NCBI RefSeq assembly: GCF_000769655.1
Contig: NZ_CP008887.1
Location: 1,550,001-1,614,000, forward strand
Origin: Thermococcus eurythermalis
Lineage (GTDB): Archaea > Methanobacteriota_B > Thermococci > Thermococcales > Thermococcaceae
Length of the DNA stretch: 64,000 bases
Reading direction: 5' to 3'
Shown: positions 46,427-53,986 of the stretch, piece by piece
Numbering within the stretch: position 1 is the stretch's first letter
Layout: each line of letters starts with the position of its first letter
The notes under the pieces: model-generated
Databases searched by the model: none
What the model was told of the DNA's origin: nothing
The model's input: only the letters and a program-made list of their open reading frames with translations
Program-made: the position numbers and the translations under genes

Positions 46427-47413
46427 TCACTCCTCCCCGAAAATCCTCTCCACGAACCACTTCTCGTCGAACGGCGTAAGGTCGTCGTAGCCCTGACCGA
46501 CGCCCACGAAGAGTATAGGCGCGCCTATCGCGTGGCTTATGCTCAAGGCCGCTCCGCCCCTCGCGTCGGCGTCCAGCTTCGTGAGAATTACCCCGTCTAT
46601 TCTAACCGCTTCGTTGAACTGCTTCGCCTGCTCGACGACGGCGTTTCCGCTCAGACTGTCGCCGACGAAGATGACCAGGTCGGGCTTGGTGACTCTCACA
46701 ATCTTCTTCATCTCGTCCATGAGGTTCCTGTTGAGCTCGTTCCTTCCCGCGGTGTCCACGAGAACGACATCAACCCCCCTCGCCTTCGCGTGCTGTATGG
46801 CGTCATAGGCAACTGCCGCCGGGTCCGCCCCGTAGTCGTGCTTGATGACCTTGACGCCGACGCGCTTGGCGTGCTCCTCTATCTGCTCTATAGCTCCAGC
46901 TCTGAAGGTGTCGCTGGCCGCTATGACGACGCTCAGCCCGTTCTTCTTGAGCCAGTTGGCGAGCTTGGCGATGGTTGTTGTCTTCCCCGAACCGTTGAAC
47001 CCGACGAAGACTACGACGAAGGGCTTCTCTTCCTTCGAGCGGATCATCTCAAGGAGGTCGAGCTTCTTTTCGGGCGTTAGGATTTCAAGAATGGCATCTC
47101 TTAGTGCCCCTTCAATGAGCTTGGCCTTGTTCGTTCCGATGCGAACTTTTTTGCCGACGAGCTTCTCTTTAATCTTCTCCCTGAGGGCTTCAACGGTCTC
47201 AAGGGCAACATCTGCCTCAAGGAGCTCAAGCTCCAGCTCGTCGAGTGCATCTTCGACGTCCTTCTCCTTTATCTCGACCTGGAGGAGCCTCTCCATCAGG
47301 CCGGGCTTTTTCTCGGCCTCGGCCCCTTTCTCCACCTTTTTCTCTTCCTCCTCGATTTTCTCCTCGACCTGCCGGGTGAACCTCTTGAGCTTCTCCCTCA
47401 GCTTTCCAAACAT
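46427..47413 (-). CDS. ftsY: Signal recognition particle receptor FtsY
   Basis: 328 residues with the acidic/basic A-domain ([21 protein letters not shown]), an N-domain helix bundle and the SRP GTPase G-domain: [43 protein letters not shown] and [14 protein letters not shown]. It receives SRP-ribosome complexes at the membrane. GGTGGGAGC precedes the ATG and a TATA (CTTTTTATAGG) lies about 40 bases upstream. It is convergent with the fourth membrane pseudogene. Confidence 0.96.
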
Positions 47414-47548: not shown

Positions 47549-48004
47549 TCAGCGCCTCCTCACGTAGGTCTTGCCCCCCACTACCTTTCCGCCATCCAGG
47601 CGCATCACGTCAACCCTCTCGAAGCCAACAGTTTCCCTCTTGTACGCTATGAGGTAGTCTATGAAGTTCCTCAGCTTGTAGCGCGTTATCGAGTCCTTCA
47701 CATACTTGCTTTCATACAGCAGGACAAGCTTATCCCTGTGCTCTTTCAGCCACTCGGTTAACTTTTCCCGCTCTTCCTTCGGGCGTGAGAGGGGGTTGAG
47801 TATCAGGTACACGTCGAAGTCGTCACCCTCAAAAGGTGAACCAATGTAAACATCACCGTCCACCTTAAATGGGAGGTGTTCCGCAAGTATGCGCTTGCCC
47901 CTACTGCCCCATACATTCAAGTATATTTCCGCGAGTCTCTTCCCGTCTCCAGTTATTAAAACCGCTCCCGAATCCATTTCGGCTATTTTCTTCAACATCG
48001 TCAT
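47549..48004 (-). CDS. Hypothetical protein
   Basis: About 151 residues if started at the ATG at 48004. A TATA-like CTTTAAAC at about 48028-48035 would put the transcript start at almost this base, suggesting a leaderless message; a GTG at 48022 is an alternative. It looks like a small alpha-beta domain (GAVLITGDGKRLAEIYLNVWG, DDFDVYLILNPLSRPKEEREKLTEWL, KLVLLYESKYVKDSITRYKLRNFIDYL). I do not recognise it. It is divergent from the BMP lipoprotein gene over about 120 bases. Confidence 0.55.
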   Translation of the reverse strand: MTMLKKIAEMDSGAVLITGDGKRLAEIYLNVWGSRGKRILAEHLPFKVDGDVYIGSPFEGDDFDVYLILNPLSRPKEEREKLTEWLKEHRDKLVLLYESKYVKDSITRYKLRNFIDYLIAYKRETVGFERVDVMRLDGGKVVGGKTYVRRR

Positions 48005-48064
48005 CACAAAAAACTTTTCCACGAAGGTTTAAAGTTTTTCCCAAATTTTCGGTTTTTTCCAGAC

Positions 48065-48083
48065 CGCAAAGTATATATTTGCG
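48065..48083 (+). promoter_or_regulatory. Palindrome around the TATA box of the BMP operon
   Basis: CGCAAA (48065-48070) and TTTGCG (48078-48083) are perfect complements around GTATATA, which is the TATA box itself. The expected transcript start is near 48105 and the ATG at 48124 follows GAGGTG. A protein bound to this palindrome would block TBP, so the transporter operon is probably repressed in this way. The regulator is unknown. Confidence 0.5.
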
Positions 48084-48123
48084 TTACACTTTAGATATTT
48101 TCAGAACTCGTGAGGTGTTAGGC

Positions 48124-49410
48124 ATGAGAAGATTGCTTGCTCTGTTCCTGATAGGCGTTATGGCCTTTAGCGTAGTGGCCAGCGGTTGCATCAGCGGTGG
48201 GGAGGAGAAGACCGGAATAAACATCCTCTACACCTACACTGGCTCTTTTGGTGACCCTGCTAAGGGCAAACAGGCCACTCAGGCTCAGCTCCAGCAGGGT
48301 GCCTGGGTAGTCTACCAGGTTGCCGGTGGAACCGGTCTCGGTGTCTTTGAGGCCATAGGCGACTACCTGAAGGCCAACAACAAGAAGATGGGCCCGCCGT
48401 TTGCAATCGGTGTTGACTCCGCCCAGGACTGGATTAAGCCGGGAGCAATAATTGCGAGCATGATGAAGCGCGTTGACCTCGGTGTTTACAACGCCGTCAA
48501 GCAGGCGGAGGAGAACAAGTTCGTCGGCGGTGTCGTCGAGCTCGGCCTCAAGGAGGGCGGTGTCAAGCTCTCAGACATCGAGGACGTCAAGGCCATGTTC
48601 GATTCTCTTCCTGAGGATATCAAGCAGAAGAAGCTCAGCGAGCTCGGATTCAAGAGCGAGGACGGGCTCATCAAGTTCCTTGAGCAGACCAGGAAGCAGG
48701 TTCCAGACTGGATATGGGGGGCCGTTGACGAGCTCCAGAACCAGATAGTAAACGGCCAGATTGTCGTCCCGAAGGCCACCGCCAAGGACCAGATTGAGGC
48801 CCTAAGGAAAGCCGAGGACTGGAAGACCATGGAGGAATACGCCAAGAACTGGAGCGCCAACGAGCCCGCTCCGGAGACCCACTTTGATGAAAAGCTCAAC
48901 CAGAGGCAGAACACCAAGAAGATAGCCGTCGTTTACGATGTTGGAGGCAGGGGCGACCTGAGCTTCAACGACATGGCCTACCTCGGTGCCAAGAGGGCGG
49001 CCGATGAGTTTGGCCTTGAGGTCACCGAGGTTCAGAGCAACAGCGAGAACGACTACCTCCCGAACCTCAGGAGCCTCGCCAAGAGCGGTGAGTACGACAT
49101 CATCGTTGCCGTCGGCTACATGATGACCGAACCCGTCAAGCAGGTTGCCCAGGAGTACCCGAACCAGAGGTTCGTCATCATCGACGGTTTCGACCCAGAG
49201 ATGCCCAAGAACGTCCAGATGGTGCTCTTCAAGGAGAACGAGGGCTCGGCCCTCGCCGGAGCCCTTGCGGCCCTCATAGCCCTCAACGACGGCAAGGATA
49301 CCATCGGAATCGTCCTCGGTATGGAGATTCCGGTGCTCTACAAGTTCGAGGGTGGATACCGCTTCGGTGCCTACTGGGCCCTCGACTACTACCAGAACCA
49401 CAAGCAGTGA
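48124..49410 (+). CDS. BMP-family substrate-binding lipoprotein, apparently circularly permuted
   Basis: 428 residues. Signal peptide with lipobox VASGC (Cys22). Family members such as PnrA/TmpC begin after the lipobox with KIAVVYDVGGRGDLSFND and reach the second lobe about 165 residues later. Here the second lobe comes first (INILYTYTGSFGDPAKGKQA at about 32, YQVAGGTGLGVFEA, FAIGVDSAQDWIKPG at about 93-107), with a helical extension to about 243. The first lobe follows from about 265 to 427 (IAVVYDVGG, LSFNDMAYLGAKRAADEFG, MVLFKENEGSALAGALAAL) and the protein ends at GGYRFGAYWALDYYQNHKQ, the normal hinge. A 20-residue linker joins the halves. It heads an ABC operon and should capture nucleosides outside the cell. 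Confidence 0.85.
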   Translation: MRRLLALFLIGVMAFSVVASGCISGGEEKTGINILYTYTGSFGDPAKGKQATQAQLQQGAWVVYQVAGGTGLGVFEAIGDYLKANNKKMGPPFAIGVDSAQDWIKPGAIIASMMKRVDLGVYNAVKQAEENKFVGGVVELGLKEGGVKLSDIEDVKAMFDSLPEDIKQKKLSELGFKSEDGLIKFLEQTRKQVPDWIWGAVDELQNQIVNGQIVVPKATAKDQIEALRKAEDWKTMEEYAKNWSANEPAPETHFDEKLNQRQNTKKIAVVYDVGGRGDLSFNDMAYLGAKRAADEFGLEVTEVQSNSENDYLPNLRSLAKSGEYDIIVAVGYMMTEPVKQVAQEYPNQRFVIIDGFDPEMPKNVQMVLFKENEGSALAGALAALIALNDGKDTIGIVLGMEIPVLYKFEGGYRFGAYWALDYYQNHKQ

Positions 49411-49453: not shown

Positions 49454-50989
49454 ATGGAAGAGCGGACTCCAGTGCTTGAGATGAGAGACATTGTTAAGGT
49501 TTATCCGGACGGTACAAAGGCCCTCAAGGGCGTCACCGTTAAGGTCTACGAGGGCGAAATCCTCGGCCTTCTCGGGGAGAACGGTGCCGGAAAGACGACT
49601 CTGATGAAGATACTCTTCGGAATGCTCAAGCCCACAAAGGGCAAAATCTTCCTCAGGGGGAAGGAAGTCCACTTCAAGAGCCCCGCAGATGCGATAGCCA
49701 ACGGAATTGGAATGGTCCACCAGCACTTCACGCTCGTGGACGTCTTCAACGCCCTCGAAAACATAATCCTTGGCATGGAAGGACACGGCCTCCTGTCCAA
49801 GATTGACGTCGAGAACGCTAGGAAGAAGCTCCAGAAGCTCATGGACGAGCTCAACTTCCAGGTGCCCCTCGACGTCCCGGTTGAGAACCTGCCTGTCGGC
49901 GTCCAGCAGAGGATTGAAATCCTGAAGATGCTCTACCGCGACGTTGACATACTCATTCTCGACGAGCCCACGGCAGTCCTCACCCCGATAGAGGTGAAGG
50001 AGCTCTTCGCAGTTCTCAGAAAGCTCAAGGAGCAGGGGAAGACGATAATCTTCATCAGCCACAAGCTCAACGAGGTCATGGAGATTACCGACCGCGTTAC
50101 CGTCATCAGGAGGGGTGAAGTAATCGGAACAGTTAATACCAGCGAAGCAACGCCAGAGCTCCTCGCTAAGATGATGGTCGGCAGGGACGTTGTGCTGAGG
50201 ATTGAGAAGCCTCCAAAGGAGCCCGGTGAGGTCATTCTCCGCGTTGAAGACCTGTGGGTCAAAGGCGACAGGGGGGAAGAGGCTGTTAGAGGCCTCACCT
50301 TCGAGGTGAGGGCAGGCGAAATATTCGGAATAGCCGGTGTCGAGGGCAACGGCCAGAGCGAGCTCATAGAAGCTATCTCCGGGCTTAGGAAAGTTGAGAA
50401 AGGTAAGATTTATCTCAACGGTGTGGACATCACCAGCAAAACGCCGAGGGAGCTCTACGACATGGGAATGGCTCACATCCCAGAGGACAGGACTCACATG
50501 GGCTTGATTCTGGACATGAGCGTCACAGAAAACTCAATCCTCGGAATGCACTGGAGGAAGGAGTTCTCAAGGGGCTTCCTCCTCGACTGGAGTAAGGTTG
50601 AGGAGCATGCGAAGAGGCTCATAGAGGAGTTCGAAGTCAGCGCGCCCGGAACCAAGGCCCCTGTGAAGAGCCTGAGCGGTGGAAACCAGCAGAAGCTGAT
50701 AGTTGCGAGAGAGGTCAGCAAGAAACCAAAGTTCATCATAGCGGCTCAGCCGACGCGCGGTGTTGATGTAGCATCGACGGAATACATCAGAAACTACCTC
50801 GTCAAGCTGAGGAACGAGGGTAAGGCCGTCCTTCTCGTCTCTGCAGACCTGGACGAGGTCTTACAGCTCAGCGACAGGATGGCGATAATGTACGAGGGCC
50901 AGTTCATGGGCATAGTTAAGCCGGAGGAGGTTACCGAGGAGCAGATAGGACTCATGATGGGAGGTGTTAAGGGTGAGCCTCAGGAGTGA
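49454..50989 (+). CDS. Nucleoside-type ABC transporter, tandem ATP-binding protein
   Basis: 511 residues with two nucleotide-binding domains. The first has GENGAGKTTLMKI as Walker A, a changed signature LPVGVQQRIEI and ILILDEPTAVL. The second has a degenerate P-loop (GVEGNGQSELIEA), a proper signature LSGGNQQKLIV and FIIAAQPTRGVD. This asymmetric pattern is normal for the RbsA/NupO/BmpA-associated carbohydrate-uptake-2 class. It follows the BMP gene by 44 bases, with a T-rich stretch between, and overlaps the first permease gene. Confidence 0.93.
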   Translation: MEERTPVLEMRDIVKVYPDGTKALKGVTVKVYEGEILGLLGENGAGKTTLMKILFGMLKPTKGKIFLRGKEVHFKSPADAIANGIGMVHQHFTLVDVFNALENIILGMEGHGLLSKIDVENARKKLQKLMDELNFQVPLDVPVENLPVGVQQRIEILKMLYRDVDILILDEPTAVLTPIEVKELFAVLRKLKEQGKTIIFISHKLNEVMEITDRVTVIRRGEVIGTVNTSEATPELLAKMMVGRDVVLRIEKPPKEPGEVILRVEDLWVKGDRGEEAVRGLTFEVRAGEIFGIAGVEGNGQSELIEAISGLRKVEKGKIYLNGVDITSKTPRELYDMGMAHIPEDRTHMGLILDMSVTENSILGMHWRKEFSRGFLLDWSKVEEHAKRLIEEFEVSAPGTKAPVKSLSGGNQQKLIVAREVSKKPKFIIAAQPTRGVDVASTEYIRNYLVKLRNEGKAVLLVSADLDEVLQLSDRMAIMYEGQFMGIVKPEEVTEEQIGLMMGGVKGEPQE

Positions 50990-52019
50990 GCTCAGGGGAT
51001 ACACCAAGCCCCTTGCCGAGAGCGTCCTGGCGATACTCATCGGCGCCTTTGTTGGCGCCCTCGTCCTCTGGTTCAGCGGCTACAGCCCGGGTTCCGCTTA
51101 CTACTGGCTCATCAAGGGGTCTCTAGGGTCAGCTGACGGCATTGCCGAGGCCCTCAGCAAGGCCGCCCCGCTAATCCTGACCGCCATAACCTTTGCAATA
51201 GGTGCCAGAACTGGACTTTTCAACATCGGAGCCGAAGGGACGGTTTACTTCGGCGCCATAGCGGCGATAATCGTGACCCAGCACCTCCAGAACCCGATAG
51301 CCGGCCTCCTCGCTGGCCTTCTCGTAGGTGCCCTCTGGACCCTACCGGCGGCAGTCCTCAAGGTCTTCAGGGGAGTGCACGAGGTCATATCCACGATAAT
51401 GTTCAACTGGATTGCCTTCTTCGTCGTCAGCTGGCTTGCGGTCAGCGTCTACTACAACCCGAAAGACCCCAACAGCACCCTGCCAGTTCCACCTTCGGCC
51501 AGGCTTCCGCTCCTCATGAAGGGAACGAGCCTTTCCTGGTCTTTCATAGTCGCAGTGCTCACGGCAGTGATAATCTTCATCGTGATGTGGCACACCAAGC
51601 TCGGTTACGAGCTCAGAACCAGCGGTCAGAACCCGAGGGCGGCAGAGTACGGCGGAATTAACCCAAGGCGCTCTGCAATATGGTCGTTCGTTATCGGCGG
51701 CATGAGCGCGGGACTCGCAGGGGCTGGACTCGTCATGGGAGTTCCCCCGAGCTACGCGATAACCCAGGGACTGGCCAACGTTTACGGCTACGGCTTCGAT
51801 GGAATAGGCGTTGCCCTCGTCGGAAGGAACCACCCGCTCGGCATAATCTTCTCCGGAATCCTCTTCGGAGCGCTGAACGCAGGAGCTACAGCAATGCAGC
51901 AGCATGCCCACGTCCCGCTTGAGATGGTCAAGGTCATTGAGGGAATAATCATCATAGCGGTCGCCGTCCCCGGACTGCTCGACCTCGTTACCAAGGTGTT
52001 CAGGAGGGGTGAGGCATGA
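50973..52019 (+). CDS. ABC transporter permease (BPD_transp_2 type)
   Basis: 348 residues from the GTG at 50973, six bases after GGAGGTG; it overlaps the ATPase gene by 17 bases. Ten or so membrane helices, with motifs of the nucleoside-type permease: LTAITFAIGARTGLFNIGAEGTVYFGA, IMFNWIAFFVV, RTSGQNPRAAEYGGINPRRS, GYGFDGIGVALVGRNHPLG. It forms the channel with the second permease encoded next. Confidence 0.93.
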   Translation: MSLRSELRGYTKPLAESVLAILIGAFVGALVLWFSGYSPGSAYYWLIKGSLGSADGIAEALSKAAPLILTAITFAIGARTGLFNIGAEGTVYFGAIAAIIVTQHLQNPIAGLLAGLLVGALWTLPAAVLKVFRGVHEVISTIMFNWIAFFVVSWLAVSVYYNPKDPNSTLPVPPSARLPLLMKGTSLSWSFIVAVLTAVIIFIVMWHTKLGYELRTSGQNPRAAEYGGINPRRSAIWSFVIGGMSAGLAGAGLVMGVPPSYAITQGLANVYGYGFDGIGVALVGRNHPLGIIFSGILFGALNAGATAMQQHAHVPLEMVKVIEGIIIIAVAVPGLLDLVTKVFRRGEA

Positions 52020-52927
52020 ACGAGACAATGATAATCAGCCTGCTCCTCGGTTCGCTCGCCGCAATGGTTCCGATAGCCCTGACCAGCATAGGCGCCGTGA
52101 TAAGCGAGAGGGCCGGTGTCGTTAACATCGGCTACGAGGGAATACTGATGTTCTCAGCGTTCTTCGGCGCGATGTTTGCAGAGCTTGCGGGAAACGGCTG
52201 GGTTGGACTCCTCGGCGGAGCCCTCGTCGGCATGCTCCTCGGAGCCCTACACGGAATACTGACGGTCTACCTGAAGGGAGACCACGTCATCCCAGGTATC
52301 GGCCTCAACCTCCTCGCCGCTGGAGCCGTGGCCTTTGGAATCTTCGCATACTGGGGAACCGCCGGTCAGCACCAGGTTCCGAGCAACGTCCAGATTGAGC
52401 CCCTCTGGATGGACGCCTTCGGAAACTCCCTCAGCCCGATGGTGCCCATAACGATAGTCATCGCCATAATAGCCTGGTGGGTGCTCTTCAAGACCCCATT
52501 CGGGCTGAGGATTAGGGCGGTCGGTGAGAACCCGGAGGCGGCAGATGCCCTCGGAATAAACGTCGAGCTCTATCGCTTCACGGCTGTTCTGATAGCGAGC
52601 GCCCTTGCAGGAATAGCTGGAGCCTACCTGAGCGTTGACTGGCTCGGCACGGTCACGAAGACGATATCCGCTGGAAGGGGTTTCATAGCCCTCGCCAACA
52701 TGGTCTTCAGCGGCTGGAACCCGCTCGTGGCGCTCGGAGGAGCGTTCCTCTTCGGGTTCTTCGACAACCTCGCAATCTACATCCAGAACAACCCCTGGCT
52801 CGCGGGGACGATACCCTGGCAGTTCATAGCGACGCTACCCTACGTCGTGACCCTGGTAGTGGTCGCGGGAATAATAGGAAAGGCGAGGCCGCCGAAGGCC
52901 GACGGAAAGCCCTACAAGAGGGAGTGA
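52016..52927 (+). CDS. ABC transporter permease (BPD_transp_2 type), second subunit
   Basis: 303 residues; the ATG at 52016 overlaps the previous stop (ATGA). Motifs: VPIALTSIGAVISERAGVVNIGYEGILMF, RAVGENPEAADALGINVELYR, AGRGFIALANMVFSGWNPL. It pairs with the upstream permease. The four genes (binding lipoprotein, ATPase, two permeases) make a complete importer for a nucleoside or related compound. A T-rich stretch after the stop (CCGTTTTTATC) may end transcription. Confidence 0.93.
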   Translation: MNETMIISLLLGSLAAMVPIALTSIGAVISERAGVVNIGYEGILMFSAFFGAMFAELAGNGWVGLLGGALVGMLLGALHGILTVYLKGDHVIPGIGLNLLAAGAVAFGIFAYWGTAGQHQVPSNVQIEPLWMDAFGNSLSPMVPITIVIAIIAWWVLFKTPFGLRIRAVGENPEAADALGINVELYRFTAVLIASALAGIAGAYLSVDWLGTVTKTISAGRGFIALANMVFSGWNPLVALGGAFLFGFFDNLAIYIQNNPWLAGTIPWQFIATLPYVVTLVVVAGIIGKARPPKADGKPYKRE

Positions 52928-53002: not shown

Positions 53003-53986
53003 TCACTTCTTGAGTATGACCCCAAGAGCAACCCCAAGCACTATTCCAGAGACCAAGGAAAGCACCACATAGCGTCCCACGTCGTTTTCCTGAACATTCC
53101 CGGCTTCCTGGCGCTCACCGCCGAGGGCCTTAATCACGGCGGCGCTGTTCTCTATCAGAACTTCGGTGTAGGGCTTCTCACTCCAGAAGACACGTATTCC
53201 AGCCAGGGGCTTCCCGCTCTTCCTGGCCAGCTCGCTCGCCGCGTCCTTCATCTGCTCAGGGCTGTCTACTGCATAGATTACAAGGTCTGCCCCTCTGGCC
53301 GTTTCGACGAGTTCGTCAACGGCTATGGCCGGAACCTCTTCCTCAGGCTTTATCGAAGCGACCGCGGTAATTCCAAGCCACTCAATGGCGTACTGGTTCG
53401 AGGGGAGCTGGATTACGGCTGTCCTGTTCTCATCAACAAGCGCCTTGTAAGCTTCAACTATGGCCCTAACCCTGCCTTCAAAGTCCGAGTACAACTCCCT
53501 ATAAAGTCCCGCGTTCACCGGGTCAGCCTTTTCGAGCGCCTTCTCCACGGCCGATGCTATGGCCAGGGCGTTGTAGGGATCGAGCCAGACCCCGTGAGGG
53601 TTGTCCTTGCCGTTGTACCAGTGTTCGGGCAGGTAGCGGAAACCTTCCTCCCTGTAATCATCAAAGAAAAGTGTCTCCCCGGTAATGGTGCCTTCCTCCT
53701 TGAGCTCTGATATTTTCTTTTCCATGGGCAGGTGCCCGCCGGTGGTCACTATGACGTCCGCACTCCTCAGGAGTTCAATCTGGTCCGCAGTCATCTGGTA
53801 CTCATGGGGGTTTGCACCCGGCGGAATCAGGTACACGACTTCCACTGCGTCGCCGAAGGCGTCCTGGACTATTGAGGCAATAGGAGCTATGCTGGCGACC
53901 ACTAGGGGCTTTTCCTCTGAAGCGCCGGTGAGCGGAATAAACGACGCGATTAGGAGCAGTGCTATGAGCAGAGTTCCCCTCTTCAT
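53003..53986 (-). CDS. Metal ABC transporter substrate-binding protein (ZnuA-like)
   Basis: 327 residues with signal sequence MKRGTLLIALLLIASFIPLTGA. Cluster A-I metal-binding pattern: PPGANPHEYQMTADQ (His), TGGHLPMEKK, NPHGVWLDPYNALAIAS (His) and KPEEEVPA (acidic ligand). A C-terminal hydrophobic helix (YVVLSLVSGIVLGVALGVIL) probably anchors it in the membrane instead of a lipid. It should bind zinc or manganese. No permease or ATPase gene is adjacent, so the transporter must be elsewhere or this is an orphan. Confidence 0.88.
   Translation of the reverse strand: MKRGTLLIALLLIASFIPLTGASEEKPLVVASIAPIASIVQDAFGDAVEVVYLIPPGANPHEYQMTADQIELLRSADVIVTTGGHLPMEKKISELKEEGTITGETLFFDDYREEGFRYLPEHWYNGKDNPHGVWLDPYNALAIASAVEKALEKADPVNAGLYRELYSDFEGRVRAIVEAYKALVDENRTAVIQLPSNQYAIEWLGITAVASIKPEEEVPAIAVDELVETARGADLVIYAVDSPEQMKDAASELARKSGKPLAGIRVFWSEKPYTEVLIENSAAVIKALGGERQEAGNVQENDVGRYVVLSLVSGIVLGVALGVILKK

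Follow-up and report, generated by a model that had tools for sequence, protein, structure and literature searches.

Organization of the locus

The window that we analysed is a 64,000-nt stretch of Thermococcus eurythermalis DNA (contig NZ_CP008887.1, positions 1,550,001 to 1,614,000 of the forward strand), and coordinates below are those of the window unless another genome is named. An open reading frame on the plus strand, from 48124 to 49410, runs unbroken through 428 codons to a TGA stop, the initial annotation having likewise called the frame intact. From the PF02608 profile, matches to solved structures and alignments, its product was assigned as a circularly permuted substrate-binding lipoprotein (SBP) of the BMP/PnrA family, orthologous to NupD. 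Inspection by eye of the upstream DNA revealed a Shine-Dalgarno-like gaggtg at 48112 to 48117. Further upstream, a TATA-like box (gtatatat, 48071 to 48078) and the purine-rich, BRE-like sequence before it are predicted to form the probable archaeal promoter of an operon. Three genes follow on the same strand, identified by reading frame, synteny and NCBIfam matches: an ABC ATPase with two nucleotide-binding domains (NupA-like, 49454 to 50989), permease 1 (NupB-like, 50964 to 52019) and permease 2 (NupC-like, 52016 to 52927), which the mosaic edges described below mark as the last gene of a transferred cassette. A double-domain ATPase and two permeases adjoining the SBP (49454 to 52927) are the gene company expected of the BMP/PnrA family.

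The flanking genes lie on the minus strand. Upstream are a 157-aa gene (47549 to 48022), which has no NCBIfam match and is the same neighbour in genomes with the permuted and with the ordinary form, and a putative SRP receptor gene, ftsY (46427 to 47413), named by its sequence features and conserved in synteny. Downstream is a gene for a ZnuA/AztC-like metal ABC transporter substrate-binding protein (53003 to 53986; synteny and NCBIfam). Permuted and ordinary operons mostly occupy this one locus, in the order ftsY, 157-aa gene, SBP, ATPase, permease, permease, znuA. Exceptions to this arrangement occur in genomes G009 and G068, whose operons are Pyrococcus-like, and in some further cases, mainly in other genera, in which part of the ftsY/157-aa/znuA neighbourhood was not seen. 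The operon of G068 (locus L072), a member of the window's genus, is a divergent Pyrococcus-like one without the usual neighbours, which suggests a different import event.

The two halves of the lipoprotein are in reversed order

Nucleotides 48124 to 48189 specify a predicted signal peptide and lipobox (..VVASGC) with a lipid-anchored Cys22; the lipobox is kept in all complete permuted members and in most ordinary ones. The segment that follows, residues 31 to 243 (48214 to 48852), corresponds to the C-terminal half of ordinary members, with the motifs YTYTGSF, YQVAGGTG, GVDSAQD and MMKRVD and a C-terminal helical extension. A linker, SANEPAPETHFDEKLNQRQNT, at residues 244 to 264 (48853 to 48915), joins it to the ordinary N-terminal half, residues 265 to 428 (48916 to 49407), which contains KIAVVYDVGG, SFND, KENEGSALAG and FEGGYRFG and ends in the former hinge helix, DYYQNHKQ. 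Profile PF02608 aligned accordingly in 2 inverted blocks, profile positions 156-276 at 48217 to 48603 and then 3-149 at 48922 to 49371. The total of 168.9 bits, against a gathering cut-off of 24.1, places the protein within the BMP/PnrA family, and the reversal of the blocks departs from the linear order of the profile. Solved structures of the family also matched in reversed order: residues 30-215 aligned with 218-395 of 4pev (E = 8.5e-66) and residues 259-418 with 47-211, the N-terminal half proper corresponding to 55-211 of that structure. Either half searched singly retrieved the same core set of BMP/PnrA structures. Excluding the Pyrococcus-like proteins, identity to ordinary members was about 62-71% for the C-terminal half and about 66-77% for the N-terminal half. 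To judge from these alignments, the reversed order is a structural rearrangement inside the family, the homology of both halves being clear.

In ordinary Thermococcus members the chain reads lipobox, linker, VYDVGG ... YRFGVKWAEDYYKQKTGKDVNIDVLYQYTGS ... and ends with KTWQEMEELAK. The permuted chain reads lipobox, linker, INILYTYTGS ... MEEYAKNW, the new linker, KKIAVVYDVGG ... and ends with YRFGAYWALDYYQNHKQ. By alignment, the cut lies in the segment that formerly joined the 2 lobes, and the permuted proteins keep the old C-terminus up to a Trp found at the end of longer ordinary proteins. The initial annotation had thus placed the boundaries of the halves correctly to within a few residues. 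The linker it described as having 20 residues is present and is conserved throughout the permuted set, although the quoted sequence has 19 letters and about 21 residues separate the canonical termini.

Two features of the permuted form are shared with the ordinary proteins of neighbouring genera (groups g4-g6): a Thr in LYTYTG, at a position occupied by Gln in 31 of the 39 ordinary sequences, and a C-terminus reaching the Trp, which sets both apart from most ordinary Thermococcus proteins. Since these features are common to the two sets, they suggest that the permuted form split from the ordinary type early in the history of the family.

Predicted structure

An AlphaFold2 model of the protein reached a pLDDT of 87.4 and a pTM of 0.87, from an alignment in which permuted sequences were combined with the 2 halves of 7 ordinary relatives as separate fragments; because the ordinary halves were thereby laid on the permuted order, the model is homology-informed and not independent proof of the permutation. 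With 9 permuted sequences only, the pLDDT was 49.5. In the homology-informed model, which folds confidently, the linker is ordered, with blocks at pLDDT 88-94, and values below 50 are confined to residues 1-28. Foldseek comparisons of the model with each PnrA-type structure aligned about 155 residues, or one half, at 1.9-2.8 Å, as expected of a permuted chain given that the program demands linear order. We also obtained a 419-column alignment of the model with a Rhodopirellula binding protein, PDB 5er3 (rmsd 10.9 Å; TM 0.59, normalized to target length), which may be another permuted binding protein.

Distribution of the two forms

Our sample of the family consisted of 94 Thermococcaceae genomes, 90 of which have a BMP match. 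The permuted arrangement was found in 22 of the 90, all in the window's genus and all sharing their junctions and linker. Nearly all the remaining BMP genomes gave one forward match, that is, the ordinary order, a few being cut by contig ends. No permuted BMP protein was found outside the window's genus in the phylum sample, whose only 2 further genomes with a BMP match beyond the Thermococcaceae (G113 and G114) have the ordinary order, as do all solved BMP structures, from bacteria and Aeropyrum, in which both halves could be placed; the ordinary order is therefore ancestral. Viral contigs yielded no relatives, and no tandem-duplication or intermediate form was detected among the 94 family genomes. 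A profile search with PF02608 revealed no second BMP gene, of ordinary or permuted form, elsewhere in the window's genome.

The proposal in the initial annotation that the lipoprotein is naturally circularly permuted is borne out by the reversed profile and structure matches, together with the ordinary form in other Thermococcales. That form also disposes of the worry that all Thermococcales might share the one order. Mis-assembly of a tandem duplication, or a collapsed repeat, is able to mimic a permutation, and some of the permuted members derive from fragmented metagenome bins. However, the same order and junctions recur in 21 other genomes, with a linker that is conserved and evolving, and they include closed genomes and T. 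kodakarensis KOD1 (G023/G027 and G018/G032 are pairs of closed or almost closed genomes); no tandem repeat is present in the window gene. The order is therefore due neither to chance nor to misassembly, and we give an assembly artefact practically no weight.

Two genomes with more than one BMP sequence deserve separate mention. The second copy in G042 was considered as a permutation intermediate and rejected, being a kinase fusion: a 1071-aa frame (locus L040, 8253 to 11465; G042:C1:58252-61464) combines a BMP domain of ordinary order with a Ser/Thr-rich stalk, what appears to be a membrane segment, DUF7662 and a protein kinase domain of the Ser/Thr type. It resembles an archaeal receptor kinase that would sense nucleosides with a single polypeptide, and only 1 of the 94 family genomes gave a full-length match to it. 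The Thermococcaceae also have families of related kinase-domain genes, often clustered several to a genome, whose frames span about 400-2000 aa and differ in their N-terminal parts, as at G000:C1:1485617-1497297 and 1625026-1626297 (outside the window), and also in G018, G029, G044 and G067; these may encode receptor kinases whose sensor domains can be exchanged. The second case, G053, is a bin that carries a permuted and an ordinary operon (L045 and L046) on different contigs; it is 53% complete, which makes it likely that 2 species were mixed in the bin.

Single origin and spread of the permuted operon

On a species tree built from 23 ribosomal-cluster proteins the permuted form is scattered, with at least 10 changes between the permuted and ordinary states, and this tree rejects a permuted clade (AU p = 2e-85). 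A tree of the flanking genes likewise needs 10 changes. The scatter could be read as repeated, independent permutation at one site in separate lineages. Against this, the tree of the SBP body and that of the ATPase plus permeases each show a single permuted clade with support of 100. The ATPase alone and the N-terminal half alone at first required 2 changes, and both formed one permuted clade (support 99-100) once a very distant outgroup was left out. With the linker common to the whole set and the operons mosaic against their flanks as well, independent permutations appear very improbable. The same trees overturn the description of the operon as otherwise ordinary, for its ATPase and permeases form a divergent clade of their own that travels with the permuted SBP.

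The mosaics were observed in 5 pairs of sister genomes (G042/G030, G016/G033, G023/G027, G032/G018 and G019/G072), in which the flanks resemble those of the ordinary sister and the operon resembles other permuted operons. The switch occurs close to the signal peptide on one side and directly downstream of permease 2 on the other, the upstream edge in G019/G072 being unclear. In mixed pairs whose ribosomal proteins are 98-100% identical, identity was 96% for the 157-aa gene and 85% for znuA, and 70-75% for the SBP halves, 80% for the ATPase, 60% for permease 1 and 69% for permease 2. These low operon identities hardly vary with species distance, which is the signature of 2 long-separated alleles. 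Within the window's genome, ftsY is nearest to that of G024-type species, and the 157-aa gene and znuA resemble those of the G033 group and look imported, so that the imported tract there probably extends beyond the operon; the different nearest relatives of ftsY and of the next gene suggest a recombination edge between 46427 and 48022.

The deep separation of the 2 forms would also be expected if an ancestor had carried both operons and each was lost in different lineages, and G042, where the kinase fusion supplies an ordinary-order BMP domain in addition to the permuted operon, could be counted in favour of such differential loss. Yet both forms sit at the identical locus, no genome has the 2 operons side by side, the only bin with 2 operons is the 53% complete G053, and in sisters that separated recently the tracts end inside the locus. 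On this evidence we consider differential loss quite unlikely. The comparisons of gene trees and mosaics indicate, rather, that the permutation arose once and that allelic replacement afterwards carried the operon, as a cassette, between species.

Function of the permuted protein

The T. kodakarensis orthologue, TK0657, is NupD of the NupDABC system and has been linked genetically to nucleoside use (PMC12628685). In that report, deletion of TK0657 abolished growth on guanosine, inosine and cytidine and slowed growth on adenosine and uridine, the strain scored being an evolved one with 2 NupD substitutions. The report places T39 of TK0657 near the NupC contact and gives an AlphaFold3 model with an RMSD of 0.73 Å to 2FQW. 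In G023 (T. kodakarensis KOD1), we found that position 559628 belongs to codon 39 (Thr) and position 559861 to codon 117 (Lys) of the permuted gene, in exact agreement with what is given there for TK0657. The window operon is of the NupDABC (TK0657-TK0660) type, with an orthologous permuted SBP, the same neighbours and membership of one clade.

K117 is invariant in both forms, and the family motifs SFND, YQVAGGTG and GVDSAQD are conserved in the permuted set. Values of dN/dS among permuted genes, roughly 0.08-0.19, show that the protein is under purifying selection. By analogy with TK0657, the window protein is very likely the binding subunit of a nucleoside importer; nucleoside binding is predicted for it and, for TK0657, is supported by the growth phenotypes. 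We found no solved structure or binding measurement for any permuted member. Some evidence could point to a different importer with a non-nucleoside ligand: permease 1 shares only about 60% identity with its counterpart in ordinary operons, and the top-ranking NCBIfam model is that of a putative vitamin B6 transporter SBP (ABC_BMP_B6), although its 82.8 bits are far below the equivalog cut-off of 400. Considering the effect of TK0657 on growth on several nucleosides (PMC12628685) and the conservation of the motifs and of the pocket Lys, we regard such a different importer as unlikely.

Discussion

Our preferred explanation, to which we would assign a probability of about 0.9, is that the window encodes the permuted SBP of a NupDABC-type nucleoside importer, that the permutation occurred once, and that the whole operon then spread by homologous replacement at the same locus. 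The permuted order, its distribution, the monophyly, the shared locus, the mosaics and the purifying selection are findings of the present comparisons, and the dependence of nucleoside use on the T. kodakarensis orthologue comes from the literature. Circular permutations usually arise by tandem duplication of a gene, in-frame fusion and loss of the outer halves. We infer the same route here, duplication followed by end-trimming in an operon of the ordinary Thermococcaceae type. In the resulting protein, the signal peptide and lipobox lead into the old C-terminal half, the new 21-residue linker joins the old C- and N-termini, and the chain ends at the site of the former first inter-lobe crossover. 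The lobes would be expected to pack against each other in the ordinary PnrA manner, to close around a nucleoside bound in the cleft and to dock on the 2 permeases. In functional terms the change that can be seen is in the site of attachment. The membrane anchor enters at the hinge and not at the first N-lobe strand, and the lipid tether joins a few residues before the position equivalent to T39; an effect of the moved anchor on docking is conjectural.

Ordinary BMP/PnrA lipoproteins, among them T. pallidum PnrA (2FQW), S. pneumoniae PnrA (6Y9U), B. burgdorferi BmpD (6SHU) and the Aeropyrum protein (4PEV), the first 3 with nucleoside ligands, are homologous to the window protein in both halves and share its family motifs, but differ in how the halves are ordered, in where the lipid anchor sits and in the linker. 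The other known natural case, a type I binding lipoprotein that is circularly permuted and still binds its ligand, is TpMglB-2 (Tp0684; PMC4990184), of the "Type Ic / Cluster Bc" kind. That protein is sugar-binding, its permuted parts have little sequence similarity to their counterparts, and its cut lies inside the N-lobe, with 3 N-lobe strands moved to the C-terminus and a fourth crossover needed. The window protein, in which the whole first half up to the hinge was moved, shows neither of the latter 2 features. The two permutations work alike and are separate events in different families. The initial annotation was right to place the cut in the first inter-lobe crossover, but its view that the fold requires such a cut does not hold for TpMglB-2, and by that comparison a crossover cut is convenient and not required.

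The permutation itself is not new, for a "flipped domain arrangement" of NupD relative to PnrA was published in October 2025 (PMC12628685) for TK0657, which has the same permuted order, locus and operon as the window protein and is 83% identical to it. That report presents TK0657 as one archaeal variant, and the term "permutation" is absent from its main text; in the parts consulted, it mentions neither that sister species have the ordinary form nor that the operon has spread. We found no description of both topologies at one locus, or of repeated transfer of a permuted operon, in the openly licensed literature; the single origin, two-form polymorphism and cassette spread thus appear unreported there, and since the search was restricted to such papers, the absence of an earlier report is weak evidence.

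The replacements would leave the genus with 2 interchangeable forms of one locus. We are inclined, with some reserve, to a picture of one genus and one locus, with an ordinary or a permuted SBP and its matched transporter exchanged by about 10 recombination swaps, perhaps under balancing selection, which might reflect receptor avoidance or a shifted nucleoside range. Natural circular permutations are as a rule encountered only where distant families diverged long ago. In this genus, sister species have either the permuted or the unpermuted form at a shared locus, with about 70% identity between the forms in either half, and one form has repeatedly taken the place of the other. The locus is thus a natural experiment in which folding, ligand affinity, docking and anchoring could be compared between 2 topologies in the same cellular setting, and such comparisons would be possible in the genetically tractable T. 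kodakarensis.
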